DNA of 35,850 nt from a virus. The translations under genes and the position numbers were made by a program. The stretch's first letter is position 1. The number at the start of each line of letters is the position of its first letter. Location: positions 1-35,850 of the IMG/VR virus record IMGVR_UViG_3300020578_000228. The stretch is one strand, 5' to 3'. The notes beneath the pieces were generated by a model that was given only the letters and a program-made list of their open reading frames with translations, was not told the DNA's origin and ran no database searches. Below are positions 5,046-35,850 of this stretch, one piece after another.

Positions 5046-6420
5046 GATTTCCAAAAGGATTGCTTTCACTGAAATTTAAAATCAAATCCGCTTCATTTTC
5101 AATATCTTTATTTTGACCAAATTTATCATTTTGATTATAATCATCAATCATTCTAACTTTATATGTCGCTGAAGAAGCTGCGCCGACAATATTTTCATTA
5201 TTTACAAAAATGCCACGAATATTCGCAAGTTTTAATTCGTTTGTTATCATATCCCAAGATCTAACTTTTCCAGTTGCTCCACTTACACTTCCAGTTACAT
5301 CTTCATTGTATATGTATGTTCCAACTCCAACCATATAAGGAGATCCAATTGTGATTGTAGGTGCCACTGTGTATCCAAGACCTGCATTTGTAATTCGAAT
5401 TTGTGTAACAACACCCGATTCATTAATCACAACCCTTCCTATTGCCGTTGTTCCCGCACCAGGAGGAGAAGAAAATGTTACTGAAGGTGCAGTTGCGTAA
5501 CCAGAACCTCCATTGGAAACGGTAATGATGCCAACAATTCCATCTCCAATAACACTTGTTGCAGCTGCACCCGATCCGCCGCCGCCCACAAAAACAATAC
5601 TCGGCGCAACAGTATATCCATATCCAGGGTTAACGATTTCTACACCCTGAATTTTTTTGGAAATAGTCCCGTTACAATCAACAATTCCTTCAATTAAAGT
5701 TGCAATTCCAACTGCAGTTAAACCTCCAGCTGGGGCAGAAGAAATTGCCACTGTTGGAGCGGAAGTATATCCATTTCCTCTTTTTGTTACTGTGACATAT
5801 CTAACGCCACCATTTACAATTCCAGTTGTTGCCAAGGCGGTAACACCAGAACCAACCATCGTCAATGTTTGAATATATCCTTCATTCTCAATGTTATCAT
5901 CAATTTCTTCAACACTTGTATCAATAATCTCATCTTCATATCTAAAGAGTTCGCATTTGAGTTGATAGACATATGTTTTTTGAAGTTGATAAAAAGGTTG
6001 TTCATGCTCTACAAATTTGATTTCAAATAACCTATCTCCAAGAGGGAAATAAATCAAATCACCTTCTTTTGGTCTTGATGTAAGTTGAATATCTGGAATA
6101 TCCTTGATTAAAGGTGCGATATAATTTTCATATCTTTCTTTTGAAATGGTCAAAGTTAAATCATTTAATGGTTGAACACCAAACTTTGATAAAAGAGTCC
6201 CTTGACCTTCATATCCATCATAAGTTTCAATATAAGCTTCAATTGGATATGCATTGTTAAATTCGGATTCAACAACTTCTCTTATTACGGTTTTAGTTGT
6301 TAAATATTGCCTTGGAATATAATAAACCTCAACACCATACATACGAAGTTGCTCATTGATCAAATCTTGAACCAATGATTGCTCAGATGTTGAACCTTGA
6401 AGGAAAAATGGATTGAGCAT
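5041..6420 (-). CDS. gp14: Neck protein gp14 with large GxGY-repeat insertion
   Basis: A 459-residue protein. T4 gp14 (256 residues) forms the neck with gp13 after DNA packaging. The conserved part is residues 1-165: EQLRMYGVEVYYIPRQYL (T4 MRGVECYYVPREY), TYDGYEGQGTLLSKFGVQ (T4 FEGYEGAKSFFSNFGMQ), and RPKEGDLIYFPLGDRLFEI (T4 KEGDLIYFPMDNSLFEI). The C-terminus (ESNPFGNP) parallels the T4 'SSPFDND' end. Between them, residues about 205-360 hold four repeats of about 40-50 residues with GNGYTSAPTV, GYGYTVAPSI, GSGYATAPSV and GLGYTVAPTI. Residues 374-426 hold an SGA-type module (GATGKVRSWD). The insertion is glycine-rich and beta-like and could decorate the neck as whiskers do in T4. The start is one base after the gp13 stop. 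Confidence 0.93.
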   Translation of the reverse strand: MLNPFFLQGSTSEQSLVQDLINEQLRMYGVEVYYIPRQYLTTKTVIREVVESEFNNAYPIEAYIETYDGYEGQGTLLSKFGVQPLNDLTLTISKERYENYIAPLIKDIPDIQLTSRPKEGDLIYFPLGDRLFEIKFVEHEQPFYQLQKTYVYQLKCELFRYEDEIIDTSVEEIDDNIENEGYIQTLTMVGSGVTALATTGIVNGGVRYVTVTKRGNGYTSAPTVAISSAPAGGLTAVGIATLIEGIVDCNGTISKKIQGVEIVNPGYGYTVAPSIVFVGGGGSGAAATSVIGDGIVGIITVSNGGSGYATAPSVTFSSPPGAGTTAIGRVVINESGVVTQIRITNAGLGYTVAPTITIGSPYMVGVGTYIYNEDVTGSVSGATGKVRSWDMITNELKLANIRGIFVNNENIVGAASSATYKVRMIDDYNQNDKFGQNKDIENEADLILNFSESNPFGNP

Positions 6421-26100: not shown

Positions 26101-29070
26101 ACTTCCAGTGGAGGTTAAATTTACGTACTGTTTTGTCTTGAAATAAAAATCATCACTTCCAGTACCAAGGCCAACGTTTCCTGGAGAAATTATGGATAAT
26201 TTAAAATTATCATCATCTACTTTTGTTACATAATATGATGTTTGACCTAATCCACCGATTACAGTTCCCGTGGTTGTATAAGATATAATTTCTCCCGTAT
26301 TATATCCATGATTTTCAATATTAATACTATCAGATGCTGTATTAATTTTAACAGGAGTTGTAGTTGTTTTTTTGGTTTGATAGTTATATCCAGAATTTTC
26401 AATTGTTATAGATCCTATTTTTTTCTTTTTCTGAACAGACTTGAGTAAATGAGTTCCTACTCCATATCCTGTCAAATTAACCGTATTGATTCCAGCAGTA
26501 ACTCCTTCAAGAGTATTATGAAGTTTAATTGTAGTAGCACTTTGCACAGAAACAAAATATTGAGCGTTTGTTGTTAAACCACCAACGGCACTACCACTTT
26601 GAGTATTATATATTACTTTTTCGCCATTTCTAAATTTATGGTGTGTTGAAAATCCAATAGTATCTGTTGTTAAATTAATCAATCCACTTTCAGCGGATGG
26701 TAATACAACTACTGAGTGATCAAATTGAATTAAATTAGGTTTTGCTAAAGCATTAACCCCATTTCCTCCTGTTATTTTAATAGTTGGAGTATCCAAATAA
26801 TCAAAACCAGGATCTAAAATTTCAATTCTATCGAGTTGTCCAATTACCGAGCAATAAACTGATGCTCCAGAACCAACCTGATCCGTTACATTTAATATTG
26901 GCGGATTAATAATATCATAGTCAGTTCCTCCATCAAGAACATTAATTTTTTCTACTGGCCCAAAATAAACAACATCTTTTGATTTATAATTTAAAACTTC
27001 AACACCGTTAATAAAAACTCCAGTATTACCAGTGGTAGTACTTTCTTTTACTAATGCATTTTCTGGACTTGAAATTTTTCTTATAATTTTTTGTGGTTCT
27101 AAAGTTCTTGTTTCAAAATTTGTATATGTGTAATCACTTATAATAAATTTATTATTTGATACTGTCGTTGAACCGATACTTACAAATTTTCCAGCATTAA
27201 TACTAGATAAACTAGTTGCAATTCTAATAGTAGTATCATTTACTTTTTTAACGTAATATATGCCTGTTGTAATTCCTAAAGTATTACTTGACCCCGATGG
27301 TTTATATACAATAGAATCTCCAGTGAATAATTTGTGATCACCAATTACCAGATCCATTCCACCGAAAAATCCTGAAAAAGTTATCGATTTATCAGAAACA
27401 TTTAATGGTTGATTCAGATAAGTTGGAATTGATGGAGATGCAATATAAAAAGAATCATTCAAATCAGTATAAACATTTTGAACGTTTGATGTATAATTTG
27501 AAAGATCTGGATAATTTGTGGAGTTTACTTTTAATAAATTTTTTTTTAAAGTATAAATTTGAGATGTATTTAATTCTCCTTGCCCACGAACTTTAAACCT
27601 TTTGTTTGTATCATAAGAAAGTATAAATCCAGTTGACTTTACACCAGTTGATGAAATAAAAGTCACAGAATCCCCTAATGACAACGAATGGGAATCATAT
27701 AATGTAACAAGATATGTAAAGTCTGTTACATCAAGCAGGAGTAAAGATTCAACATCGTATTTTACTGGTATATTAAAAAACCAATTATTTTCTTCTGGTT
27801 CTTTAGATTCGTATCCTAAATTCTTAATATAAACTCTATCTCCTTTTTCGTAAGGGCCAACTTGCTTTAAAACATTAAGATTGGATAAAACACCAGTAAC
27901 TCTAAATTTAACCAGACCAGAAGGTGTTGTACCATAAGCAAAAACATTTGCTCGAATAGAACTATTAGAAGTTAAATCAGTAACAATACCTGAGCAACCG
28001 AAAAATTGTGTTAATGACTTTTCTGTATAAGTAACAACCTGAGCGTCTCCAACCACCAATTCTCCAAAATTTGGGAATCCTACTGTAGAATCTACCGTGA
28101 GAACATCTGCACCTGCTGATATTTCTTCAATAAGTTGAGTTTTTGGATGAATTGTAAAAGATCCCTCTATAACTCCAGGAGTTGTAATACCTTTACTATC
28201 TTCAACACTCAACATATAGTACTCTTTATTTCCTCTGATAATTTTTTCAACTTTTGAAATTGCGGCACTTGCCGAATTAATATAATCATTTTTATCCTGA
28301 TAGATTGTCGTATTGACCAATTCCTCAATATTTCCAGATATTTTTTCAACGACTAAATTTCTATTAACTTCAAACTTAGAATCAGAAAGTTGAATGAGAT
28401 AGTCTTTTGGCCTGATAATTTGAACATCTTCGCCATACAGTGCTTTGAATAAAATTTTGATCGAAGAATCTGTGCCCTTAGAGGAATAAAAATCTTTTGA
28501 TTGTTTAATAAAAAGAGATTCATTTAATCCAGAGTAAAATTCTTTATCCTCAAATCCAGGAACAATTTGTTTTTTGACTTTTTTATAAAATTCTTTTAGG
28601 AAAAGAATACTTAAGTTTTTTACAATACTATTGTCCTCATGCTCTGCGGCTTGAGAAGTTGAAAACACTAATTTATCAGTAACTGTAGAGTCTTGATATG
28701 AACTGATGCCGCTAAATCCCCTTACACATCCAGTGAATGATGTTGATGTTTTGCCAGTGTATGTAATGATCTCAGAATCAATTTGAATCAGACCATAAGA
28801 ATCTGGAAACCCTGCGGTGGTTTCTACATTAATAGTTGTAGAGGTGGTTGTAATTTCAGCAGAAAGAGATGTAGAATCGACTAAGTTAGTTAAGTTGTCA
28901 ATTTTGACATAATTATCAATATTTTGAATAATGTCAGATGGGCCGCTTTGACTTTCAATTGCTGTATAGTATTGAGATAAAAACTCTTCTACTAGTGGAT
29001 ACTCTTCTCTAACGAACGAGGGAAGTTGTCCTTGAACGATTAAACTAACGTCGATTCTTGTTTCTGACAT
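17110..29070 (-). CDS. gp7: Giant gp7-like baseplate wedge protein
   Basis: A 3986-residue protein; T4 gp7 has 1032. Residues about 1-230 correspond to the C-terminal part of T4 gp7: LPSFVREEYPLVEEFLSQYY (T4 'EAFCEAYIQYL..GYG'), then KDFYSSKGTDSSIKILFKAL and YGEDVQII (T4 YDFYSTKGIEASYKFLFKVL, YNEEVEIEI). This region is interrupted at 62-135 by a GFPDSYGLIQIDSEIITYTG module. The remaining roughly 3600 residues are beta-rich modules: a YHYH-type domain near 1223-1310 (DGNPIYGPYGY, LDEHNGRF), at least a dozen GxGY..P repeats, six or more 'H..TG..I.Y' modules and three related domains near 2545-2880. It lies between gp6 and gp8, exactly the T4 position. It probably forms the wedge arm plus long host-facing appendages. 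No signal peptide or membrane segment is seen. Confidence 0.82.
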   Translation of the reverse strand: MSETRIDVSLIVQGQLPSFVREEYPLVEEFLSQYYTAIESQSGPSDIIQNIDNYVKIDNLTNLVDSTSLSAEITTTSTTINVETTAGFPDSYGLIQIDSEIITYTGKTSTSFTGCVRGFSGISSYQDSTVTDKLVFSTSQAAEHEDNSIVKNLSILFLKEFYKKVKKQIVPGFEDKEFYSGLNESLFIKQSKDFYSSKGTDSSIKILFKALYGEDVQIIRPKDYLIQLSDSKFEVNRNLVVEKISGNIEELVNTTIYQDKNDYINSASAAISKVEKIIRGNKEYYMLSVEDSKGITTPGVIEGSFTIHPKTQLIEEISAGADVLTVDSTVGFPNFGELVVGDAQVVTYTEKSLTQFFGCSGIVTDLTSNSSIRANVFAYGTTPSGLVKFRVTGVLSNLNVLKQVGPYEKGDRVYIKNLGYESKEPEENNWFFNIPVKYDVESLLLLDVTDFTYLVTLYDSHSLSLGDSVTFISSTGVKSTGFILSYDTNKRFKVRGQGELNTSQIYTLKKNLLKVNSTNYPDLSNYTSNVQNVYTDLNDSFYIASPSIPTYLNQPLNVSDKSITFSGFFGGMDLVIGDHKLFTGDSIVYKPSGSSNTLGITTGIYYVKKVNDTTIRIATSLSSINAGKFVSIGSTTVSNNKFIISDYTYTNFETRTLEPQKIIRKISSPENALVKESTTTGNTGVFINGVEVLNYKSKDVVYFGPVEKINVLDGGTDYDIINPPILNVTDQVGSGASVYCSVIGQLDRIEILDPGFDYLDTPTIKITGGNGVNALAKPNLIQFDHSVVVLPSAESGLINLTTDTIGFSTHHKFRNGEKVIYNTQSGSAVGGLTTNAQYFVSVQSATTIKLHNTLEGVTAGINTVNLTGYGVGTHLLKSVQKKKKIGSITIENSGYNYQTKKTTTTPVKINTASDSINIENHGYNTGEIISYTTTGTVIGGLGQTSYYVTKVDDDNFKLSIISPGNVGLGTGSDDFYFKTKQYVNLTSTGSGTHIFNYPQITATVEGTIGVEIFAGQDFTAKIQPIFRGKIDSIFIENGGNSFGSQEILNFNQPQFTISEGSNAQVTPVIYNGQIVKVVVNNSGYGYNSIPNLTINQVSNSGAGAILTPVIANGSLIEVRIINGGSEYENNTTISVTNPGKNSKFEAVIKSWQINLVEREIFANQITDDDGFLSKSFYENFGLQYSHAYAPRKLRSSVVSQKNNEDLKIFNGIELISNDHSPIIGWAYDGNPIYGPYGYSTATGGSVKALRSGYDLILKSNRPTLALYPLGFFIEDYIYTENGDLDEHNGRFCITPEYPNGVYAYFCTLDTTAIQNQGPFKNYFKPQFPYVIGNSYYSKPIKFNFEKTSNQDKININDTKWLRNVTPYNLTKLRSFYDYLLLPNKIKESVSTINLVSAGSINSIGIKTGGENYKVGDKVIFDNSGTGGQGLSADVSLVRGKNISQISAASSSIAYVEFSASNIGFNFIGFSSFPHNFVNNDVVTITGKYDYKKTNPIVVTNNTLIAITSIASTTNTGLVTYFSVSGNLNFPNIRENDVYQINNEKVKVLNIDKKSSRIRVLRNINQISGVTSYSSGIALTERTRKFQMSFGISTSYDLKANKELYFDPAESVGLGTTAGVGIGSTLFFSNPGVGITQITIPTKTIYIPDHQLDTGTRLIYNSNGGTPISISTNGIASYQLTNNSIVYAAKITNDLIGISTVKVGLGSTGVFVGLGTIPGDTVYFHALGVGNTHSFKTDYDGIFIGAVNQNIVTVSTATTHGLTNGDNITLNAKPGIATTVFVRYNNFNRRMAINPVSFTASDINVPNNTIQLINHRLYNGQKIIHTSSSPCGGLTNETIYYVVVISDNLIKLSSSYYDATLAVPVETIDITSASLGTILPINPPLKAIRNVSFKFDLSDSSLAFTKSGNSYPAFELNFYEDSKFKKPFKTSKNTSTFEISKSGKPGVDANAHTTIKINDYIPNVLYYRLEPIDLENNSLTKTEIIVDEETLNYNKITKVDSLYNGIYTVTVGIDTTSFTFNSVDVPENSSYSSTDGQFEYYTTSLSALGSIHQINVKTNGVNYSSYPKVVSVNSGLGTNAILDVTGINIGTAKKTKLDDIGFDYYSDLSIRPLANLAHILKISNSSTLKSIGITSVGKDYTIAPNLILIDGVTNKLIEDVKLNYNLGDPFVSIIENTKSITDSIASIIPINNINGSGISTISYNNNTKEVTVGLAKSFSNLSDFPFTVGSKFLIENVSVGVGSTGYGYNSENYDYSLFAVKASTPNIGGIGATVVYSLADHLPIGKVPGIWQSADSSFARIISQSHFPIFNIKFEKNNFFKDESVIPNGTVESWDPVNDILRISSNNIYEIGDIIKTLSGSQAKIVDIITNEGIYDVKESEIVKKTWQNNVGFLNDSLQKISDNDYYQYFSYSLKSKVDYDDWDEATNSLVHTVGFKKFGDLIIESTLNQVGLSTTQNDTDVSITVDLQNEIDLDCYYDFDLVTESNFEIDSNIKSNKISFSSRILSDYIESIGNRVVILDDISELFNSNPRANPFTSVDTFLLTSTRSKKYFYSALDTSYNTERQVGLIGFIHDDETGYLNHYGAVYTQDDLGTFDFSVSGTEGNLRFYPFKYKINNYDLTFISFDIEDTAIGVGTTQLGNCVSIAASTKTLAAGTSTATTVVGIASTYRASKVLVQIGATDGSYYEFNELTVLHNGSDVNLLEYFPLATDSPLVSGSVGLGTYVPSISGSNVNIDFVPNSALGVGHTVTTLRVSIGDTSSSGIGTIVLKDTILDSKIVSIPSSPTPTANLITSFFNVEHVGAYYFASVEDTTNNQYEVSELVCITDGTTPGLSEFGIIRTDSSLGTFSVSGTASTTSLNYTPNPNINVQVRLFRQTIGHIHNIALDDELDLGNTNIVSSFGSYEGTENDIKKQFDLTHDGDLIFERAFDASNAGIVSVSDNTIRIPLNYFVTGEEVVYTYPESTSSTANAVGIATTTITGIGTTDKLPNTVYIVKLNELDVRVAASASDALKQIPTVLTLESAGIGTFHKFTAKNQNSKLLVTVDNQIMSPVIGNGVTASLTNSLGYYDTTVTLSGISSIIAGSLIKINDEIMLVNSSSLTSNSITVNRGWVGSGISTHNSGSLVSRLGGDYNIIDSQINFVVPPFGQIPFVNPNARGDEEDYIGLEVSSTFNGRMFMKSGEPGGTLDPYYNNYVFDGTVSTKFNSVENDFTLTNNLNNISGFSTSKAIVLLNNIFQLPARSGSFVSVEGNYDLIESVGISTISFVGTGVALNDDPNVSPFPRGGVIVSIGSTEGFGYQPLVAAGGTATVSVLGAISAISIGNSGSGYRSGIQTVVNVGVATTSLGTPNIEFIGTAAISGGNIVSVAITNPGTGYTSTNPPLVIFDDPLSYSNIPLIYSSSSSAGVGTEAIVDIVVGQGSSIISFEIKNYGYSYKVGEILTVAIGGTTGIPTDTSLSFSEFKITVDDTFSDKFSGWSVGDLQVLDPLDLLFDGVRKVFPLEIDTVRFSVRAKAGSLIDVQANLLIFINDILQVPGDGYIFNSGSLVQFTEAPKPGDTSKILFYKGNGDIDTQSIDILETVKSGDTLQIYDSSFEESQNERLVKEVLSIDEVLTNVYNGPGLTTDPTIIRPVIWCKQRNDVVIDGSYVTKDRISHEPLIHPSTNIIQSVGIASTTIWVENVKTFFNNNSEYPAIDLNPRKISIISQDTLIAAAATAIVSAAGTIQSIVLSSGGKGYTTNPVVTIATPVGLGTTYRAQSSSTISGGAVSTISVTSPGSGYTSTNPPVVLIESPNLTYEVISNVTYDGDFGIITGIATTSIVGIATTGLVFDLFIPQNSFLRNIGINSVGVATTGISGIQTGDYFTVFNSNVGNGVTSLASSNSGIVGIGTSFIDNIYKVAQVSIAQTSAAGIALTYVTRVVVSVASTNGISGFGFSSFYGEYSWGRISGGTRLNPKAFTAYNNGLAGISTSPIVQRYNPLKYRNYST

Positions 29071-29074
29071 GTTT

Positions 29075-30985
29075 TTATAAAATTACGAGTGCTCCGTTTG
29101 CGTAACTTGATGTTACCGTATAAGTTGATCCTGATAAATTAGCACCTGATGAAATTTCATCAGATACAATATTTACAGAACTATTACTACTATCTATCTG
29201 CAAATATAAATCCTGCAATCCAATTACATCATTGGAGAAAGGAATTGCAGAAACTTTAATAATCGGGGCCCCAGATGTAGATTTTTCTGTGCTTATAATA
29301 TTTACTGGATTTAATCTGAGTTCTCCTTTCACATAATCAATCGTTCCAGCCTTAGATACAACGATGGATGGTTGTGTTGGTGATAACAATTTAAAGAAAA
29401 ATACCGATCCATTTTTACCCGTTGAATCTGGCAAATCTCCAAGATAGAGAGTATCTGCAAATCCAGATATATTAAACCCAGACGATTTAATATTATATCC
29501 ACTCATACTCTTCAAATAGAATTGATTGCCAAAACATATTTCATATTCAGCAAATTGGTTCAATGCAACCTGAATATCTCTACGCATATTAATTTTTGTG
29601 ATATTTGATGTTACAGAAATATCACTATCATCAATCAACTTTAAGAATTTACTGTATTTAAATCTTGCTCCATACTTATTCAATTCAGAAGATAATGAAT
29701 AAGATTGAATATGTTCAAGTATTTTAGTTTTTAACGAATCTGCATTTTGATTTAAATTGCTGTTATAATAGACCTTCGTATCATATTCAACATACAGATA
29801 CTTGAGATCAATAATTTCAGTTACAATTCCTGCGACTGTGTATTTCTTTAAATTATTTTTAATTTCTGCTTTGATTGATTGTGAGAGAAGTGAGCCGTTA
29901 ATTGGTTTAATTGCAATAAAGACTTTCCCATACTTAGGTGGATTTAATTGCTCTCCGCCAAATGCGGAAACAGATTCGGCATCGGGATATAGTGTTGGAA
30001 TGATTGATTCAAAATCAGATGCAGTTACAGCACGGTTTTGAGAAGAATAAATTCTTGTTGCATATTTCTTTATTGAATTTACGGATTCAATTTCAGAACC
30101 ATTTTGTGCGGGAGAGTTTGTAGTGATGGTAGATATTCCAGTTACTACTGCGGCTCCATTGTTATCAACAATTGAACCATTATATCTAAAAGCAAAAACG
30201 CCATTCGCAGATTCACCGGTACTTACCACATAAGAAACTGCAAGATAATTTAAATTGTCAAGTTTCTTTCCAAATACATCATCTCCAAAAATAAGTTCAT
30301 ATCTTTGATCTTCAATTTCTTGAATGAAAAATACTTTTGAACTTGACGTTACATCAATTAAATTATTTGCAAGAAGAAAATTTCTTATAACCGAACTTGC
30401 TTGTGTATTTCTTACAAGAACACGAATTGTTGATGTATCAATATTTGGATTCGGCAAAATAAACTTTTGATTTGGATTATTTACATCTACCGTAAAGTTT
30501 TGAGTTAAATAAGTTCCCTCATAAACAATAATATTATTAAAAGATGCAATTTTATCAACAACAGGAACGGTAATGTCATCTGCAATTGCAAAGGTATAAC
30601 TCTCTGCACCAAATGCCTGAGTTGTAGTGACAACAAGACCTTTTTTAAGAGTTAATGTAAGCGGATTAGTTCCGAAGTCAGTTGTATCAACAGTAAAAGA
30701 AATACTGGCCTTTGCAGATCTTCTTGATCTTGGAACATATCCAATTTGACGTGCTAATGAGACTACATTTTCTCTGAGTGTAGCACTATCAATGAATACC
30801 TCATTGCTAATCATATTAGCATTATATGAGGTGATGTAAGTATTATATGCTAAAACATCAATTAACATCGAAAGATTAGATCCTTCAAAATCATAATCAG
30901 TAAACTCCGAGTTAGATCTCAGATATTCCGTAATTGAAGTTTTGATTTGATCAAAATCTAAATTTGTAAAGTTAACTAATGCCAT
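29075..30985 (-). CDS. gp6: Baseplate wedge subunit gp6
   Basis: A 636-residue protein, close to T4 gp6 (660). gp6 forms the inner ring of the baseplate and is the core of each wedge. The N-terminal motif SEFTDYDFEGSNLSMLIDVL with AYNTY (T4 NEFLDYDFEGSRLNVLCDLL, AYNTL) is diagnostic. It is followed by LRENVVSLARQIGYVPRSRR (T4 LRSSVVQAAQDNGYLPTSKS) and, later, SSQNRAVTASDFESIIPTLY (T4 TQQRCVTATDYDTFV) with YGKVFIAIKPINGSLL. The ATG follows the gp25 stop with no gap (TAAATG), so translation is probably coupled. No insertion modules of the kind present in gp7 are evident. Confidence 0.95.
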   Translation of the reverse strand: MALVNFTNLDFDQIKTSITEYLRSNSEFTDYDFEGSNLSMLIDVLAYNTYITSYNANMISNEVFIDSATLRENVVSLARQIGYVPRSRRSAKASISFTVDTTDFGTNPLTLTLKKGLVVTTTQAFGAESYTFAIADDITVPVVDKIASFNNIIVYEGTYLTQNFTVDVNNPNQKFILPNPNIDTSTIRVLVRNTQASSVIRNFLLANNLIDVTSSSKVFFIQEIEDQRYELIFGDDVFGKKLDNLNYLAVSYVVSTGESANGVFAFRYNGSIVDNNGAAVVTGISTITTNSPAQNGSEIESVNSIKKYATRIYSSQNRAVTASDFESIIPTLYPDAESVSAFGGEQLNPPKYGKVFIAIKPINGSLLSQSIKAEIKNNLKKYTVAGIVTEIIDLKYLYVEYDTKVYYNSNLNQNADSLKTKILEHIQSYSLSSELNKYGARFKYSKFLKLIDDSDISVTSNITKINMRRDIQVALNQFAEYEICFGNQFYLKSMSGYNIKSSGFNISGFADTLYLGDLPDSTGKNGSVFFFKLLSPTQPSIVVSKAGTIDYVKGELRLNPVNIISTEKSTSGAPIIKVSAIPFSNDVIGLQDLYLQIDSSNSSVNIVSDEISSGANLSGSTYTVTSSYANGALVIL

Positions 30986-31387
30986 TTATCGAGTTTGTTG
31001 TAGTGCAAATGATAACTGTTGCGGCAATACATCAATCCCTACAATCTCATACTCAATTGTAACGTTAAATTCAAGAGTATCATAGTTTGGAGATACATTA
31101 ACGTTTAATAAATTAATTCTTGGTTCATAAGTATCGATTACATTTTGAATTTCATCACGAACTACAGATGCAGTAAAGTCATCAATGTTATCAAAAAGAA
31201 TACGATTGACTTTTGAACCAAGATTTTCGTTAAAAAAACGTTCGCCGGGAAGTGTAAGAACAAGATTTCTAATAGAACGGGCAATTGCGGTCTCATTTTT
31301 GATTGCCAGCAGGTCATAATTCAGGGGACTAATCTGAAATGACATGCTAAGATCTTTAAAGCCTTTACTTACCCGTTCTACAGGCAT
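30986..31387 (-). CDS. gp25: Baseplate wedge subunit gp25
   Basis: A 133-residue protein, almost the same length as T4 gp25 (132). gp25 binds gp6 and starts polymerisation of the contractile sheath. The family pattern is clear: FKDLSMSFQISPLNYDLLAI, the N-ETAIARSIRNLVLTLPGERF motif with FNENLGSKVNRILFDN (R..i.nll.t..GEr.f.p..Gs.l...lfe), and a C-terminal INLLNVNVSPNYDTLEFNVT strand pair. The old label 'lysozyme' for this family has no catalytic support. A late promoter lies upstream (31409-31416). The leader before the ATG is T-rich and has no Shine-Dalgarno, so initiation may depend on an unstructured leader. Confidence 0.95.
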   Translation of the reverse strand: MPVERVSKGFKDLSMSFQISPLNYDLLAIKNETAIARSIRNLVLTLPGERFFNENLGSKVNRILFDNIDDFTASVVRDEIQNVIDTYEPRINLLNVNVSPNYDTLEFNVTIEYEIVGIDVLPQQLSFALQQTR

Positions 31388-31408
31388 AAAAAAATAATAA
31401 ATCTATCT

Positions 31409-31416
31409 TATTTATC
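31409..31416 (-). promoter_or_regulatory. Late promoter GATAAATA upstream of gp25
   Basis: GATAAATA fits the NATAAATA consensus. It lies 21 bases before the gp25 start and just after the stop of the 81-aa gene, so it probably drives the whole gp25-gp6-gp7 late block. Confidence 0.7.
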
Positions 31417-31423
31417 AGGGTTT

Positions 31424-31669
31424 TTACATTCCATAGGTGGGTTCAGTGCCATATTCCCAGTCATCATAGTCTTCATGATTACGAATTTTCTCATGAATCT
31501 CTTTTTGATGATGAAAATCGTGTTTTTTGGGTGTCAGATCATCATGATTAATCTCACGAAGCATCTTTTTCTCTAAAATTTGATCTAGAACACCATAATC
31601 TGATGTTAAATTTGTTGTTCCCCACAGATCATACATGTAATTTTGATCTCGATCTACTGGTTTTCCCAT
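31424..31669 (-). CDS. 81-aa hydrophilic protein, unknown function
   Basis: An 81-residue protein beginning MGKPVDRDQNYMYDLWGTTN. It is very polar, with a histidine/acidic C-terminal half (KKHDFHHQKEIHEKIRNHED, then YDDWEYGTEPTYGM) and a predicted helix around VLDQILEKKMLREI. It has one of the best ribosome binding sites in the window (AGGAGA six bases before the ATG). The AGGAG lies at the edge of a small hairpin (31678-31694), which could modulate initiation. It comes just before gp25 but on the upstream side of the late promoter, so it may be expressed earlier. I do not recognise a family. Histidine clusters hint at metal binding, without more support. Confidence 0.72.
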   Translation of the reverse strand: MGKPVDRDQNYMYDLWGTTNLTSDYGVLDQILEKKMLREINHDDLTPKKHDFHHQKEIHEKIRNHEDYDDWEYGTEPTYGM

Positions 31670-31700
31670 TTTCTCTCCTGATTTTGGTAATCAGAACTTT

Positions 31701-32333
31701 TTACGGGGTTTCTATCCCGATTTCGTACATAAAATCGTCGGAAGTTTCTATTTTTCGAAGATTTTCAACAGAATATTCGGTTAAATCAATCTCATAACCT
31801 GGATTTTTTGTGATACGATTACGAATCCATGCATCATCATACCATAAAATCTTATTATTTGGATATGCATAGAAGTTTCCATTATCCATTTTGAAAAAAT
31901 GAGCACATTTATGCTCTGGTGTCTCACTGAAATTAGTATTTAAAGTTGATTTTGACTCCCATGACCAATCAAGAGTGAACATATAAATTCCTTCATTCTT
32001 TTCTCCCTTATAATTGATCATTTCTGCACGTAATCCAGCAAGACGTGAACGAACTTGAACATCAACATATGGAGAAAAGCAATCCCACCACATACATTCT
32101 TCAAGTTTAGGAACAGGTGCATCAGGCTTCCAACAAAATGCATGAATTGGTCTTCGAGTCCAATTGACCCCATTCTCTAGAAACGTCTCAAAGAGGGGTA
32201 CATGCTTCTCTAAGGATGCTACAGAATGCACATCACATAAAGTTACCTCTCCATGTCCTTTTTTATGATTGTAGAGAAATTCATTACGAATGTAACAAGT
32301 AAATGTCGGAAGATTGTGATTGAGATATGCCAT
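31701..32333 (-). CDS. Conserved phage protein, unknown function (210 aa)
   Basis: A 210-residue protein from the ATG at 32333; a TTG three codons upstream is less likely. It opens AYLNHNLPTFTCYIRNEFLY followed by NHKKGHGEVTLCDVHSV. This 'lPtF.CyvR.EfLy...kGHGe' pattern is a family I associate with T4-like cyanophages, with no known activity. Further conserved-looking parts are WWDCFSPYVDVQVRSRLAGL and YMFTLDWSWES, then CAHFFKMDNGNFYAYPNNKI with LWYDDAWI. The high tryptophan, histidine and cysteine content suggests a compact globular domain. The ribosome binding site is poor. A small terminator-like hairpin (32344-32361) lies directly before the start, so expression may be reduced or regulated. 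Confidence 0.78.
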   Translation of the reverse strand: MAYLNHNLPTFTCYIRNEFLYNHKKGHGEVTLCDVHSVASLEKHVPLFETFLENGVNWTRRPIHAFCWKPDAPVPKLEECMWWDCFSPYVDVQVRSRLAGLRAEMINYKGEKNEGIYMFTLDWSWESKSTLNTNFSETPEHKCAHFFKMDNGNFYAYPNNKILWYDDAWIRNRITKNPGYEIDLTEYSVENLRKIETSDDFMYEIGIETP

Positions 32334-32343
32334 AATGTTCAAT

Positions 32344-32361
32344 AAAAAAGCAAGGATTGCT
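32344..32361 (-). terminator. Small terminator-like hairpin before the 210-aa gene
   Basis: On the minus strand AGCAA-TCC-TTGCT is followed by TTTTT. The stem is only 5 bp (7 with two G-T pairs). It lies between the stop of the 46-aa gene (32378) and the start at 32333, so it may be a partial terminator. Confidence 0.4.
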
Positions 32362-32377
32362 CCCTGCTCTATCTATA

Positions 32378-32518
32378 TTAATTTCCTTGTCCGCGATACT
32401 TTTTTTTACGTCCATTACGAGATGTAGCCGAGAGTAACGTGCGAGAAGATTGGCCCTGACGAGTCTTCTTAGGCGGCCCTGGAGCCCAGAAGACTTTATT
32501 CATACTACCTTTTGCCAT
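32378..32518 (-). CDS. 46-aa highly basic protein, unknown function
   Basis: A short gene, 46 codons, with an excellent context: GGAGG lies eight bases before the ATG, inside the end of the previous gene, and the ATG follows that gene's TAA directly. The product is rich in arginine and lysine: MAKGSMNKVFWAPGPPKKTR at the start and TSRNGRKKKYRGQGN at the end. I recall a similar small basic protein (N-VFWAPG..KKTRQG) in T4-like cyanophages, but no function. The charge suggests binding to nucleic acid or to the host transcription or translation machinery. Confidence 0.8.
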   Translation of the reverse strand: MAKGSMNKVFWAPGPPKKTRQGQSSRTLLSATSRNGRKKKYRGQGN

Positions 32519-32671
32519 TTAGATTTCCTCCATTTCAATTAAAGTTGGATCAACTATCTCTCCATTATAATAAGAGATCGAGAGTTCGTCAAGAACCTCA
32601 GAACAATCTTCTGTAGTGAGGTTCATATAAATTTTACGTCCTTTATAAAGAATATTGTAAAGTTTGTCCAT
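32519..32671 (-). CDS. 50-aa small acidic protein, unknown function
   Basis: Fifty codons starting MDKLYNILYKGRKIYMNLTT and ending DPTLIEMEEI. The ATG shares its A with the TAA of the glycosyltransferase gene (TAATG), and its stop is followed immediately by the next ATG, so three genes are read as one coupled unit. The pattern of two short strands with a KGRKIYM turn and then a helix with ECSEVLDEL-like spacing (EDCSEVLDELSISYY) resembles small phage proteins that I cannot assign. It is acidic in its second half. Confidence 0.75.
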   Translation of the reverse strand: MDKLYNILYKGRKIYMNLTTEDCSEVLDELSISYYNGEIVDPTLIEMEEI

Positions 32672-33438
32672 TAGATCACACGAGTCTTTTCATGACCCAC
32701 ACGAATCCGAGGATCGCACCAGATCTCAAAACCTGCTTCCTTTGCATCCAGACAGAAGGAGACATCTTCTCCACACATATCTTGAACCGCACCGGACTCA
32801 AAGACTTGCATCTTTGGAGCAAACCAAGGATACTCAAGATTCTCAAAGACTCCCTTTTTAATCATAACCCAACCAAATCCCGTGTAATCCACTGTGAAAG
32901 GCTTACGACGCTTTGAGATGCTCTCCACAGTTTCGTGATTCATCACACCACCATTGCGGCGGAAATCATCTTCTTCCAACCAGTGAGCTACTGAAGTCGT
33001 GTGACCATCTTCTGTTGCATACCAACCAGCGACAACTTCTTTGTCTTTACCTTCTTTATTCAGAGCTAAATCACAAAGTTGCCAGAACTTTTCTGTGTTG
33101 AATACAATGTCACTATCAATCCAGAGTTGATAATCATAAGTTAATTTACCATCCCAAGGAATTTGCTTAGGCCCACGAAGAACATTTGCGCCTAAACATT
33201 TGCATCGTGCAAAGTTAACCATTGATGAGTAATCCTGAGAGATCTGAATGGCCATTCCATTTTGAACCATATCAAAACAAAGTTGTACAAATGCTTTCAG
33301 AAAAGTAAATGAACAACCTCTTCCAGGAAGACAGAAGACAATTGTTTTTCCTTGCATTCTTTCTTTAATTGCATCATAGTCCCATTCCTCTTTTGAGACT
33401 GTTGGTGCATTTGCTTTTACTGTAAATCCTTTTGCCAT
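32671..33438 (-). CDS. GT-A-type glycosyltransferase
   Basis: A 255-residue protein, the only clear enzyme in the window. Family hallmarks are KTIVFCLPGRGCSFTFLKAF (N-terminal strand and helix), SSMVNFARCKCLGANV with its N-AR motif, the metal/nucleotide-sugar DxD motif in YDYQLWIDSDIVF (D108, D110), TVDYTGFGWVMIKKGVFENL, and the GEDVSFC motif at 223-229 with a late His (VGHEK, H249). It should transfer a sugar from a nucleotide-sugar donor. The acceptor could be phage DNA, a virion protein or a host glycan, and is not evident from the sequence. There is no membrane segment. A near-consensus sigma70-type promoter lies directly upstream (33462-33490), so it is probably expressed early or in the middle of infection, unlike the late baseplate genes after it. 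Confidence 0.82.
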   Translation of the reverse strand: MAKGFTVKANAPTVSKEEWDYDAIKERMQGKTIVFCLPGRGCSFTFLKAFVQLCFDMVQNGMAIQISQDYSSMVNFARCKCLGANVLRGPKQIPWDGKLTYDYQLWIDSDIVFNTEKFWQLCDLALNKEGKDKEVVAGWYATEDGHTTSVAHWLEEDDFRRNGGVMNHETVESISKRRKPFTVDYTGFGWVMIKKGVFENLEYPWFAPKMQVFESGAVQDMCGEDVSFCLDAKEAGFEIWCDPRIRVGHEKTRVI

Positions 33439-33461
33439 AAGTTGAAATTTGCTTCAGTTCA

Positions 33462-33490
33462 ATTTTATCAGACTATATATGCTTTGTCAA
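33462..33490 (-). promoter_or_regulatory. Sigma70-type promoter TTGACA-17-TAAAAT
   Basis: The -35 box TTGACA (33485-33490) is perfect. After exactly 17 bases follows TAAAAT (33462-33467), five of six bases of the -10 consensus. The -35 overlaps the stop of the 61-aa gene. The predicted start lies near 33455, leaving a leader of about 17 bases before the glycosyltransferase ATG. Confidence 0.75.
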
Positions 33491-33672
33491 TAAGATGCTT
33501 CCAGTTCCTTATTGACTAACAGTTCCTCATAAGATAGATCCTCAATCTTATAATTCGTATTGACAATCGCAATCATATTTTGAGCGGTTCTCCATGCAGG
33601 CAAAAAGTCTTGCTCCTTCAGAGAGTGTATCAAACATTTATCCCCTGCGTATATGTGATAAATTTTTTCCAT
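33487..33672 (-). CDS. 61-aa small protein, unknown function
   Basis: I take the ATG at 33672. The frame is open further upstream to 33771, but that extension overlaps the 27-aa ORF in another frame and has lysine-rich, unconvincing sequence. The 61-residue product begins MEKIYHIYAGDKCLIHSLKE and ends with a helical LSYEELLVNKELEASY part. The pattern (M-EK-YHIYA-D-CL-HSL-E-F...W, then a short helix with DLSYEE) is one I associate with small genes near gp25 in cyanophages. The function is unknown. Its ribosome binding site is weak (GGA about 15 bases upstream). Confidence 0.7.
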   Translation of the reverse strand: MEKIYHIYAGDKCLIHSLKEQDFLPAWRTAQNMIAIVNTNYKIEDLSYEELLVNKELEASY

Positions 33673-33712
33673 AAAAAAATTTTGAGTTCCACTGTATATA
33701 TGGAGTCTCTTT

Positions 33713-33796
33713 TTATTTTTTCTTTCCGCCTTTTTTGGGAATTGTTCTCTTGTCGGGCCTTGAGTACCCATTACTGTGAATCCATTTGACGCCCAT
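33713..33796 (-). CDS. 27-aa basic microprotein with strong ribosome binding site
   Basis: A 28-codon ORF starting MGVKWIHSNGYSRPDKRTIP and ending GGKKK. The evidence is its start: GGAGG lies 7 bases before the ATG, one of the best Shine-Dalgarno sequences in the window, and no other start codon sits at that distance. A late-promoter-like CTAAATA (33831-33837) and a sigma70-type promoter (34003-34031) lie upstream. The product is strongly basic, with tryptophan, histidine and tyrosine near the N-terminus. I do not recognise it. The site could instead be a leader peptide controlling the 61-aa gene 40 bases downstream. Confidence 0.6.
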   Translation of the reverse strand: MGVKWIHSNGYSRPDKRTIPKKGGKKK

Positions 33797-33830
33797 TTTT
33801 TTCCTCCGGAATTTTTTTGTGTTTGTGATA

Positions 33831-33837
33831 TATTTAG
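33831..33837 (-). promoter_or_regulatory. Late-promoter-like CTAAATA
   Basis: CTAAATA shares the TAAATA core of the late promoter and lies 35 bases before the 27-aa ORF start. It is the only such element in the accessory part of the window, so it may add late expression to the early promoter upstream. Confidence 0.35.
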
Positions 33838-33879
33838 GTCGAATTGTCACCTCTGTAGGTTAGGGACTTATAGCTTTTT

Positions 33880-33987
33880 ATAACCGCCCCCATCACGCGC
33901 CCCGCCGCCCATAACCGCATCGGCACCACAACTGCCGAATCACGAATAACTGCCGAATAAGAGCTGAGGTGCCTCACGCATAACCGC
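33880..33987 (+). repeat. Five octamer repeats ATAACCGC and variants
   Basis: ATAACCGC occurs at 33880, 33911 and 33980. The variants ACAACTGC and ATAACTGC occur at 33928 and 33946, all in the same orientation and at spacings of about 17 or twice that. Three inverted copies lie further right (34460-34532). Confidence 0.7.
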
Positions 33988-34002
33988 AGAGCACCTCAGT
34001 AG

Positions 34003-34031
34003 ATTATAGCATCAGAACTCAATTACGTCAA
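34003..34031 (-). promoter_or_regulatory. Sigma70-type promoter TTGACG-17-TATAAT
   Basis: TATAAT (34003-34008) is a perfect -10 box and TTGACG (34026-34031) matches five of six -35 bases, at the ideal 17-base spacing. It overlaps the end of the 41-aa gene. It points toward the hairpin-rich island and the 27-aa ORF. Confidence 0.75.
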
Positions 34032-34137
34032 CAGTGGACTGCTCAGCTTCTTCGGTGGCGATGGCATCGAGAATGCTCAGAATCTCATTGCCATTGTTAC
34101 CTTGTGCGAGCAGGGAAAGTGCAATCGAACGGGTCAT
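34012..34137 (-). CDS. 41-aa small protein, unknown function
   Basis: A 42-codon gene starting MTRSIALSLLAQGNNGNEIL and continuing SILDAIATEEAEQ. This N-terminal pattern (MTRS.ALSLL.QG..G..IL.ILD.I) is one I recall from very small genes of cyanophages, which supports the call despite the length. It forms a short amphipathic helix with an LLAQG turn and an acidic tail. It has no Shine-Dalgarno. The leader CTAACACTTTATC resembles those of two other small genes in this window. It is flanked by octamer repeats and carries a promoter in its 3' end. Confidence 0.72.
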   Translation of the reverse strand: MTRSIALSLLAQGNNGNEILSILDAIATEEAEQSTVDVIEF

Positions 34138-34211
34138 GATAAAGTGTTAGAAACGGTGTATTGAGTGAGTGTCTATAAGGGCGCATCTCATTCCCTCTGA
34201 TCCTTATACTC

Positions 34212-34379
34212 TTACCACTCTACATCAAGTTCCTCCACATAAGCCTCAACAGTCTCATCACCATCGAGTTGGAATAACTTACGCCAATCAATCTGTCGGG
34301 CATTAAAGTCATTATACACGGAAAGATCCAGTGTCACACGCACATTCTTTTTCTGAGCTTGAAGATAAGAAACTGACAT
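34212..34379 (-). CDS. 55-aa small protein, unknown function
   Basis: I take the ATG at 34379, not the more distant in-frame start at 34520, because a near-perfect promoter (34411-34439) lies between them. The 55-residue product opens MSVSYLQAQKKNVRVTLDLS and contains VYNDFNARQIDWRKLFQLDG with an acidic end. The 'Y.dfd..qIDW.kLF.L.g.E.V.....e' pattern matches a family of tiny cyanophage proteins that I recall without a function. The DW-KLF motif suggests a small alpha/beta fold. It is the first gene after the promoter, and the 41-aa gene follows 74 bases later. Confidence 0.75.
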   Translation of the reverse strand: MSVSYLQAQKKNVRVTLDLSVYNDFNARQIDWRKLFQLDGDETVEAYVEELDVEW

Positions 34380-34410
34380 GGCTTTGGGGGCAGAGGACTT
34401 AACTGTGGCC

Positions 34411-34439
34411 AGTATAAGATGCAGAAGGGAAATTGTCAA
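34411..34439 (-). promoter_or_regulatory. Sigma70-type promoter TTGACA-17-TATACT
   Basis: A perfect -35 box (34434-34439), 17 bases, and TATACT (34411-34416), five of six -10 bases. The predicted start lies near 34404, about 25 bases before the 55-aa gene. It is a host-type promoter, probably for early transcription. Confidence 0.78.
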
Positions 34440-34459
34440 GACCTGTGGAGTATTTATCA

Positions 34460-34532
34460 GCGGTTGTGATATTTGGCGGGGTCTCTGTGCGGTTATGGTG
34501 ATACTGGGGGGCCTTGACATTTTCGCGGTTGT
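34460..34532 (-). repeat. Three inverted copies of the ATAACCGC octamer
   Basis: GCGGTTGT (34460-34467), GCGGTTAT (34489-34496) and GCGGTTGT (34525-34532) are, on the minus strand, ACAACCGC, ATAACCGC and ACAACCGC. They face the five copies at 33880-33987 across the two small genes. Confidence 0.65.
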
Positions 34533-34599
34533 GTGATAGAGTGCGGGCTAAGATCGCTATAATCGATGAGGTTTTTAAGACCATAAAAAGCACCACACA

Positions 34600-34648
34600 T
34601 TCTCAATAATGCCCCTAATTGCTTCTCAATAACAACACTTATTGAGAA
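34600..34648. repeat. Decamer TTCTCAATAA: two direct copies and one inverted
   Basis: TTCTCAATAA lies at 34600-34609 and 34623-34632. The exact reverse complement TTATTGAGAA lies at 34639-34648. The last two form a perfect 10-bp inverted repeat with a 6-base centre, a typical layout for a dimeric protein site or a hairpin. Confidence 0.75.
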
Positions 34649-34686
34649 TACATCAAACTACTCAGCTTAATTAAAAAAAGGCTTTT

Positions 34687-34884
34687 TCATTTATTTTTAA
34701 CCATTTTACGCTGAATATCACGCTCAATTTGATTCAATGCATGACGACAAGAGGGTGTAGCACTAGTGAAAATCTTCAGACCTGAGGGATGTGCCCAGAC
34801 CAAATGTTTCGAGGTCCGCTGTAACTGAAACTGGTATGATTCCATCAGGACAGTGAGTTCCTTCTTAAACGTTTTGCTGCTCAT
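34687..34884 (-). CDS. HicA-like small protein (65 aa)
   Basis: A 65-residue protein beginning MSSKTFKKELTVLMESYQFQ, then LQRTSKHLVWAHPSGLKIFT and SATPSCRHALNQIERDIQRK. The order helix, strand with 'R..kH.vw.HpsG', strand with 't...s', then a helix is that of HicA-type toxins (dsRBD-like mRNA interferases). The histidine of the K-H-L-V-W segment is in the position of the HicA catalytic His. The usual HicA glycine before the His is replaced by T-S-K, and no HicB-type antitoxin is seen. It overlaps the preceding gene by ATGA. It could degrade host mRNA or bind RNA without cutting. It is the last gene of the small-gene run. Confidence 0.7.
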   Translation of the reverse strand: MSSKTFKKELTVLMESYQFQLQRTSKHLVWAHPSGLKIFTSATPSCRHALNQIERDIQRKMVKNK

Positions 34885-35051
34885 TGTTCTACCTGAGTGG
34901 TGATAGCCTGAAGATCAGAGAGTGCTAAACTGATTGCTGCTTTGGCATAACCGAGACGCTCAAACTCATTCTCTTTGGATAATACAAACTCTAGAGCATT
35001 GGTAAGAGTGGAGATCGCAAGATCAATCTTATGAGATGTAAAGTCAGTCAT
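34881..35051 (-). CDS. 56-aa helical protein, unknown function
   Basis: A 56-residue protein starting MTDFTSHKIDLAISTLTNAL and continuing EFVLSKENEFERLGYAKAAI. It is almost entirely helical, with regular leucine/isoleucine spacing, and suits a small helical hairpin. It overlaps the gene before it by 8 bases and the HicA-like gene after it by 4 (ATGA), so it is translated together with the HicA-like protein. Such coupling is usual for toxin-antitoxin pairs, but nothing here resembles HicB. An antitoxin role is only a possibility. Confidence 0.72.
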   Translation of the reverse strand: MTDFTSHKIDLAISTLTNALEFVLSKENEFERLGYAKAAISLALSDLQAITTQVEQ

Positions 35052-35169
35052 TTACTGTGGATTGAATAGTGTTACCAATGAGATGAAACAATTCTCCTGT
35101 GTTATACCTTAAGGATGGGGAGAGCATAAAGAACAGAAGAAGAATAATGGGAAGGATTTGTTTCTTCAT
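35044..35169 (-). CDS. 41-aa single-pass membrane protein
   Basis: A 41-residue protein starting MKKQILPIILLLFFMLSPSL. The first 20 residues are a positively charged start followed by a strongly hydrophobic stretch, either a signal peptide or one membrane helix. The rest (RYNTGELFHLIGNTIQSTVN) is polar. It overlaps both neighbours (ATGA with the gene before, 8 bases with the gene after), which supports it as a real gene. It could insert into the host inner membrane early in infection, for example as an exclusion or spanin-like factor. No family is recognised. Confidence 0.65.
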   Translation of the reverse strand: MKKQILPIILLLFFMLSPSLRYNTGELFHLIGNTIQSTVND

Positions 35170-35303
35170 GCGAGGTAAGATTTGCTACCACAAGAAAGAT
35201 AAAACTCAACCATGCGTTCGGCTTCATCCAGAGTGCGAAAGAATTGTGATCTCCACTCTTGGTGATTGTAAGGAGTTTGGTAGCGAACTTCGTAGCGAAT
35301 CAT
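35166..35303 (-). CDS. 45-aa small protein, unknown function
   Basis: A 45-residue protein starting MIRYEVRYQTPYNHQEWRSQ and ending in a DEAERMVEFYLSCGSKSYLA helix. A beta-hairpin followed by the 'F.tl.EAErmv.f.ls.G' helix is a layout I recall from tiny cyanophage proteins without known function. It is preceded by a leader that is a near copy of the one before the 64-aa gene (see the 33-bp repeat), and no Shine-Dalgarno is visible. It overlaps the membrane-protein gene by ATGA. Confidence 0.75.
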   Translation of the reverse strand: MIRYEVRYQTPYNHQEWRSQFFRTLDEAERMVEFYLSCGSKSYLA

Positions 35304-35309
35304 GATGGT

Positions 35310-35342
35310 GAAAGTGTAGTGAAAAAAGGAGAAAGATTCAGT
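35310..35342 (-). repeat. 33-bp leader repeat, copy B
   Basis: This stretch covers the end of the 64-aa gene and the leader of the 45-aa gene. It is identical to 35542-35574 at 29 of 33 positions, including CTGAATCTTTC, CCTTTTTTC and ACACTTTC blocks on the minus strand. Confidence 0.75.
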
Positions 35343-35532
35343 CGCAAAGTGTGGTCTGATAATTCACTTCCATCTCATCAAACAACAGGTGAATCTTGCT
35401 ACGAATCGCATACACATCTGCAGAGTTAAAATCATCATTATCCAGAGCATTTCCGATGAAGTTGTAGATCAGATCCCACTGATCTTCAGTGAACAGATTG
35501 CGGTAGATGTTCTTGGTGAGTTGTGAAGTCAT
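35338..35532 (-). CDS. 64-aa small protein, unknown function
   Basis: I take the ATG at 35532. The frame is open further upstream, but that extension runs through the stop region and 33-bp leader and into the previous gene. The product begins MTSQLTKNIYRNLFTEDQWD and continues LIYNFIGNALDNDDFNSADV with a second helix (RSKIHLLFDEMEVNYQTTL). It looks like a small helical, acidic protein. The pattern 'LT...w..iy..l....d.......ir.KI..LF' recalls other tiny cyanophage genes of unknown function. It is flanked on both sides by copies of the leader repeat. Confidence 0.75.
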   Translation of the reverse strand: MTSQLTKNIYRNLFTEDQWDLIYNFIGNALDNDDFNSADVYAIRSKIHLLFDEMEVNYQTTLCD

Positions 35533-35541
35533 TAGAATTGA

Positions 35542-35574
35542 GAAAGTGTGAAGAAAAAAGGTGAAAGATTCAGT
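35542..35574 (-). repeat. 33-bp leader repeat, copy A
   Basis: This stretch covers the stop of the partial gene at the window edge and the leader of the 64-aa gene. It is the partner of 35310-35342, with four mismatches. Confidence 0.75.
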
Positions 35575-35850
35575 TGAGACGCATACCGTTGAAGAACGGA
35601 ATCGCACCACCGACTTGACTCACAAACCAGCAGAAGTTCTTGGCAAATACTTTCTCACCAGGCAAACCATGCTCGGCAAGAATAGCATTGAGGCGCGACT
35701 TTGTGGTGACAGATTGCCAACCACCATCAAACAGTTGCAGGAAGTCGTTACCTACAGAGGCAATGTGATTGCCGTGCAGATACACAAACGAAACGTCGCT
35801 GATGGTGACAACTTGAGTATTGCCAGATTTGAAATCTTTGCCAGCAGTGA
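35570..35850 (-). CDS. Conserved small protein, N-terminus outside window
   Basis: The frame is open from the window edge, so at least 93 residues belong to this gene and the start is not visible; a GTG at 35785 is probably internal. The sequence reads GKDFKSGNTQVVTISDVSFV, then YLHGNHIA, LFDGGWQSVTTKSRLNAILA and GEKVFAKNFCWFVSQ. The alternation of short strands (LHGN.IA) with a 'GGW.s.TT..RLNAIL' helix is a pattern I associate with a small family in cyanophages and cyanobacteria that has no known function. It precedes the 64-aa gene by a 37-base leader that carries the 33-bp repeat. Confidence 0.72.
   Translation of the reverse strand, partial: TAGKDFKSGNTQVVTISDVSFVYLHGNHIASVGNDFLQLFDGGWQSVTTKSRLNAILAEHGLPGEKVFAKNFCWFVSQVGGAIPFFNGMRLN

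Follow-up and report, generated by a model that had tools for sequence, protein, structure and literature searches.

T4-like phages hold several kinds of promoter-linked or noncoding DNA that resemble the locus described here. In T-even phages, intergenic DNA carries promoters joined to stem-loops of variable sequence, repeated cassettes that were reportedly named PeSL (promoter-early stem-loop) by Repoila et al. 1994. The T4-like late promoters (NATAAATA) also recur, and they need no upstream motif. The T4 origins oriF (ori uvsY) and oriG (ori 34) are short segments in which a promoter is followed by an A+T-rich stretch, and they lie close to baseplate genes within a late-gene region; T4 has several origins per genome, with no common motif among them. 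Among T4-like cyanophages, wcaG, manA, PhotoRC-II, CfrI and the glutamine riboswitch are conserved noncoding elements, and all of these except CfrI are counted here as structured RNA motifs with Rfam families. Marine T4-like cyanophages have a late promoter of the form NATAAATA, some of their genes have both early and late promoters, and they are without motA and asiA (PMC2984593).

The window analyzed here is a 35,850-nucleotide stretch of viral DNA (IMG/VR record IMGVR_UViG_3300020578_000228, positions 1 to 35,850). Genes adjoining the locus match marine T4-like cyanophages of the family Kyanoviridae, phages that count among the most abundant surface-ocean viruses. A first-pass annotation had singled out a strong promoter followed by a gene-free, hairpin-bearing stretch, and had read the pair as a small RNA or a regulatory leader. 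Judged by sequence comparison, this promoter and stretch represent, in the window, a noncoding DNA element with one copy per genome in nearly all sampled Kyanoviridae. The annotation was right that the spot is special and probably wrong in placing a structured RNA there: the element looks like a start site of transcription or of replication, rather than a folded small RNA.

The element shares features with each of the described systems and departs from each. As in PeSL cassettes, an intergenic promoter is combined with a stem-loop whose sequence varies, but the element is unique and its invariant core is without a PeSL counterpart. As with late promoters, a TATA-like CTAAATA (33837-33831) stands ahead of a late module, but here an invariant core lies at a fixed upstream distance, once per genome. 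Unlike the T4 origins it presents one conserved motif, and whereas oriF lies 3' of gene 25 with a primer running away, the element lies upstream of gp25 and points to it. Unlike the cyanophage RNA motifs, it has neither an Rfam match nor a conserved fold. The element is small and readily testable. Its single copy in nearly every genome examined, its constant geometry and its allele-like modules would make it a handle on the early-to-late transcription switch in phages without motA and asiA, and on the start of replication.

Promoter and leader in the window

The promoter is present and strong, with a score of 11/12, and its class is conserved in relatives (Table 1). It lies on the minus strand, so that the coordinates of the element run from right to left. 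Five such sites occur within 28000-35850, this one included; promoter-like sites in that region number 29 against 27 +/- 5 expected from shuffles, a count that taken alone is not exceptional. The region from 34003 to 33797 holds no clear gene, and its G+C content is locally higher (0.50-0.515 in 200-bp windows, compared with 0.34-0.40 immediately to the left), both as originally described.

The structures attributed to the RNA held up less well. The 9-bp hairpin said to begin the transcript exists as a palindrome, but the predicted +1 at about 33996, some seven bases after the -10 box, falls inside the first arm, and the RNA would therefore keep only 6 of the 9 bp. In relatives the same spot, about -115 from the core, is the -35 box inside an inverted repeat; in the window the loop of the repeat is without TTGACA and the promoter stands about 50 bp further upstream, as it does in the relative L110. 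The second hairpin, of 6 bp (UCGGCA..UGCCGA), is indeed predicted in the leader. Comparison with shuffles shows no excess of folding in the 228-nt leader as a whole: z is 0.19, and 115 of 200 shuffles did at least as well. The G-rich stretch suspected of forming a quadruplex offers no more than a weak, two-tetrad pattern in the window, and three-tetrad patterns are found on the sense strand of 0/132 relatives; a G-quadruplex is ruled out as a feature of the element, as it is not conserved.

The 27-aa open reading frame that such a leader might have regulated belongs to a recurring microprotein type, WIH-x-G-x-SRPDK. The gene following the element varies among relatives, and a leader serving this reading frame specifically is thus unlikely. 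A second strong minus-strand promoter (33462-33490, TTGACA-17-TAAAAT, extended -10) lies about 24 bp before the 255-aa phrog_1574 gene.

Table 1. Features of the element and its surroundings in the window
Feature	Position	Strand	Remarks
sigma70-type promoter TTGACG-17-TATAAT, extended -10 (TG)	34003..34031	-	TTGACG 34031-34026, TATAAT 34008-34003; class kept in 72/132 relatives
9-bp inverted repeat CTGAGGTGC...GCACCTCAG	33964..33999		arms 33964-33972 / 33991-33999; about -115 from core
two GGCAGTT motifs, 18 nt apart	33931..33952	-	CAGT at 33952-33949 and 33934-33931
G+C-rich block directly upstream of A tract	33886..33905	-	position conserved; sequence and strand bias variable
TTATAAAAA, with invariant AAAA at -14..-11	33875..33883	-	AAAA at -14 in 123/132
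core TAAGTCCCTAACCTACA, family-wide invariant part TAACCTACA	33854..33870	-	
allele-like module, here GAGGTGACAATTCGA; elsewhere ACGAACCAAA, AAAGTATCC, CTGTATGTCTTTTT	33839..33853	-	between core and TATA-like box
CTAAATATAT, late-promoter-like box	33828..33837	-	TAT exactly +35..+37 from core start; TAT at +35 in 102/132
27-aa ORF MGVKWIHSNGYSRPDKRTIPKKGGKKK	33713..33796	-	GGAGG Shine-Dalgarno 33803-33807; similar ORFs behind 14/132 elements
small phrog_2626 gene	33487..33771	-	first widely shared downstream gene; downstream of 56/88 elements
255-aa phrog_1574 protein, distantly glycosyltransferase-like (T4-like GC 102)	32671..33438	-	downstream, same strand
gp25-like baseplate wedge gene	30986..31387	-	phrog_261, 4e-49; fixed downstream landmark of element

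A conserved block of fixed geometry

A BLAST search with the noncoding part gave short matches in S-SCSM1, S-SM2, Bellamy, SynMITS9220M01, P-TIM68 and S-SSM7; several of these fall where no feature is annotated. These matches in named phages made us suspect a conserved block, and a 52-bp block that the first-pass annotation does not mention is found at 33879-33828 on the minus strand: AAAA, CCCTAACCTACA, CGA and TAT, in this order and at rigid spacing. Its core, TAAGTCCCTAACCTACA, is matched in at least 120 stretches of viral contigs, and the variant core YCCCTAACCTACAAAGGT in 56. A host origin of the core was rejected: the 17-mer has only two matches in 84,980 species genomes (one genome per species), neither of them cyanobacterial.

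The 132 nonredundant elements used for comparison were picked by core match, and the conservation of the core among them is by construction. Around the core, A occupies -4 in 96% and G occupies +25 in 91% of these elements, while mean G+C falls from 0.74 at -30..-21 to 0.12 in the adjoining A+T tract at -20..-11. Past the TAT come an A+T-rich stretch and then a small ORF that differs among phages. From core to TAT the sequence takes the form of allele-like modules (GAGGTGACAAAT, ACGAACCAAAAT, AAAGTATCC, AAGGTTCCC and CTGTATGTCTTTTT), and most members of each large module class keep the positions of AAAA and TAT; TAT stands at +35 in 6/7 CTGT modules despite the part before CGA being two bases longer. 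Comparison of the elements suggests that modules have been swapped by recombination. Four loci (L007, L019, L029 and L040) have closely similar leaders with different modules, GAGGTGACAAAT or CTGTATGTCTTTTT, at +12..+26.

Because these searches required the core, we made two tests that were independent of it. For the first, loci were taken through the 255-aa neighbor protein only, with a profile trained on other loci. The block lies upstream of the gp25/gp6 baseplate genes in 61 of the 67 loci so fetched, always in sense orientation and never twice, with TAACCTACA in 95-100%, AAAA (-14..-11) in 98-100% and TAT (+35..+37) in 95-98%. The six absences may stem from distance or from contig ends, IMG/VR contigs being fragments; one of the six, L059, does have the core in the larger set. 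For the second test, 11 complete cyanomyovirus genomes, along with portions of four more, were searched with a held-out profile, trained without the test genomes. A single sense match was observed in 10 of the 11 (Syn19, S-SM2, S-ShM2, P-SSM7, Syn9, S-SSM4, SynMITS9220M01, P-SSM4, P-TIM68 and P-SSM2) at E values of 1e-14 to 1e-5, with no second match at E <= 10, and each of the four partial genomes also gave one sense match. In Syn9 the element stands at about 53.5 kb, in P-SSM2 at about 69.1 kb and in S-SM2 at about 58.8 kb. In the complete genome of S-PM2 the same scan found no element. Upstream of gp25, S-PM2 (L395) has a repeated leader, GTAGGATAACTTCAGTTCAAACGAAACGACCCATGACC, before successive small high-G+C ORFs (at about 5231-5265, 5470-5507 and 5757-5795 of L395).

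The position of the element is constant as well. The gp25 gene lies downstream on the same strand in 81/88 long loci, and at 0.9-5.1 kb from the element, again on the same strand, in all 14 genomes that carry it; on the upstream side is a cluster of small genes. It is hardly credible, then, that the window holds ordinary intergenic sequence with a promoter and hairpins by chance. A regional promoter count equal to that of shuffles and the fold z-score of 0.19 would agree with chance, but the geometry conserved in independently fetched loci and in complete genomes refutes it.

GenBank gives most element sites no feature, or small hypothetical ORFs. Neither Rfam nor GenBank annotation gave a description of the element, nor did any of the papers searched; an earlier description is possible, the Syn9 transcriptome paper being outside that search. 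The latter (Doron et al. 2016) is said to report a new early regulatory element.

The outer promoter, its stem-loop and the CAGT motif

A sigma70 promoter scoring at least 10/12 precedes 72 of the 132 elements, compared with 3 in shuffled sequence and 5 on the antisense strand. The -35 and -10 hexamers are 16-18 bp apart and conserved in relatives, and the median position of the -35 box, counted from the core, is -117. An inverted repeat of at least 7 bp surrounds the -35 box in 42% of the 55 element promoters close to that position; the same measure gives 9.5% after shuffling of the flanks and 7.5% for all strong cyanophage promoters. In those element promoters the -35 box sits in or beside the loop, and the arms vary widely in sequence yet match each other (mean fold z -2.05). 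Stem-loop and promoter coincide in these relatives, as in PeSL; in the window, the promoter lies outside the inverted repeat.

Between promoter and core, a CAGT motif occurs in sense orientation in 82/132 elements, mostly at -75 to -61, and in antisense orientation in 0/132; the window has two copies. A general role of CAGT in cyanophage promoters was ruled out, as it stands behind 41 of 267 other strong promoters against a control of 38.

No conserved RNA fold

RNAalifold returned no consensus structure for the 132 aligned elements, and no conserved secondary structure with compensatory changes was found inside the transcript in this set. Compensatory change, which had been put forward as a check, does occur in the form of co-varying arms, but these arms flank the -35 box and lie outside the transcript, on its upstream side. 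Leader plus core gave a mean folding z of about -0.55 for the sense and -0.41 for the antisense strand, for both only a little better than random. A candidate hairpin in the conserved core (ACCUACARAGGU) was discarded, being broken in the ACGAACC, AAAGTATCC and CTGTATGTC modules. Rfam gave no match above gathering score in the window, only a chance match with an E value of 2.5.

These results bear on the original small RNA or leader reading, of which one half stands: a conserved, promoter-fed noncoding element exists in well over a hundred relatives. Its other half, a structured RNA, is left unsupported by the missing consensus fold. The element may still give rise to a small RNA that is unstructured, or to a leader RNA of a general kind. 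A functional RNA of this kind, a small RNA or 5' leader in which the single-stranded core CCCUAACCUACA would be active as a protein site or an antisense seed, agrees with the strong sense promoter, the sense-only CAGT motif, the single, family-wide copy and a weak excess of folding around CAGT (z -0.85, s.e. 0.14). We nevertheless regard it as improbable, given the similar folding of both strands, the absence of a consensus structure and of an Rfam match, a downstream gene that is not constant and the lack of a terminator-like site after the core.

A candidate composite promoter at the early/late boundary

Fixed spacing together with the lack of a conserved fold led us to put a DNA-level reading first. 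Short invariant words held at fixed spacing over about five helix turns would be what a protein complex on DNA needs. Our leading, still tentative, proposal is that the element serves Kyanoviridae as a composite promoter region, acting at the DNA level, present in single copy and placed where early genes meet late ones, ahead of a T4-like transcript-primed origin as its main rival and of a functional RNA in third place. The region would mark where the cluster of small early-type genes gives way to the late baseplate module (gp25-gp6). Its outer part would be a sigma70 promoter of the host type, in most cases linked with a stem-loop, which would insulate it from upstream transcription. Transcription from this promoter would run through a leader of about 55-140 nt, with the sense CAGT motif and the G+C-rich block, into the inner block, with its A tract (-14), CCCTAACCTACA core, 23-nt spacer and late-type TAT box (+35). 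We infer that a phage factor and RNA polymerase would bind the inner block as double-stranded DNA, and that transcription of the downstream module would start or switch there.

The presence of early and late promoters on cyanophage genes and the absence of motA and asiA fit a composite promoter. Late promoters recur in T4-like transcription, and a dedicated regulatory site with a single use in each genome is out of the ordinary there; this uniqueness suits an origin or an RNA gene equally well and is the weak point of the proposal. The TATA-like box also speaks against it, being often a poor match to NATAAATA: the window has CTAAATA, and the strict box is absent in 69/132 elements, while TAT is fixed at +35 in most. 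S-PM2, without the element, is a further difficulty.

A replication origin as the main rival

The same region could serve as the primary origin of replication, working as in T4. The promoter transcript would form an R-loop directly downstream, at a segment that melts easily, and would become a primer, with the core setting the place of initiation. We consider this unlikely, though it would fit a noncoding, phage-only element with one copy per genome throughout the family. The promoter is followed by an A+T-rich stretch. In duplex stability, +28..+78 ranks at the 8.5th percentile genome-wide; compared with other regions upstream of ribosome-binding sites it ranks at the 12th and is less striking. 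The T4 origins oriF and oriG require roughly 100 bp that include a promoter and an A+T-rich unwinding element; early synthesis in T4 begins mostly in late-gene regions (PMC3016281). For Syn9 a single theta origin has been predicted, its place not given (PMC2984593).

The GC skew argues against an origin: the local sign change in the window has no consistent counterpart in 9 complete genomes, where no origin-marking change is seen at the element. A nucleotide skew change occurs at some T4 origins, not all. Genes 25 and 6 also neighbor oriF and oriE in T4, but the primers of these origins are directed away from the two genes, unlike here. Positional homology with oriF was rejected on the T4 record: there uvsY flanks gene 25 on the opposite side, and the primer runs in a different direction. 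The missing element in S-PM2 weighs against an origin too. It is likewise doubtful that the element is the main origin, with its promoter transcript turned into a DNA primer beside the late-type promoter and the first replication round thereby tied to late expression; were this true, the exchangeable modules of 12-14 nt would give the initiation complex alternative specificities.

Other promoter arrangements

Hairpin loops also hold -35 boxes elsewhere in cyanophages, some of them followed by a T run. In terminator-promoter fusions the hairpin loop is the -35 box and the T run is the spacer, and a TATAAT-like -10 comes next; such sites occur in S-SM2 (167150 and 143549), P-SSM7 (177774), S-PM2 (124308), P-TIM68 (152764) and P-SSM2 (142800). 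An exact-match search with the 36-nt palindrome of the window gave no match. Divergent promoters are found in the window at 34411-34542, TTGACA-17-TATACT on the minus strand (34439-34411) and TTGACA-17-TAGAGT on the plus strand (34514-34542), and a 15-nt inverted repeat (34429-34443/34510-34524) spans both of their -35 regions. GCGGTTRTG repeats occur at 34460, 34489 and 34525 and, inverted, at 33910 and 33979, which makes five matches in the window against 0.14 expected.
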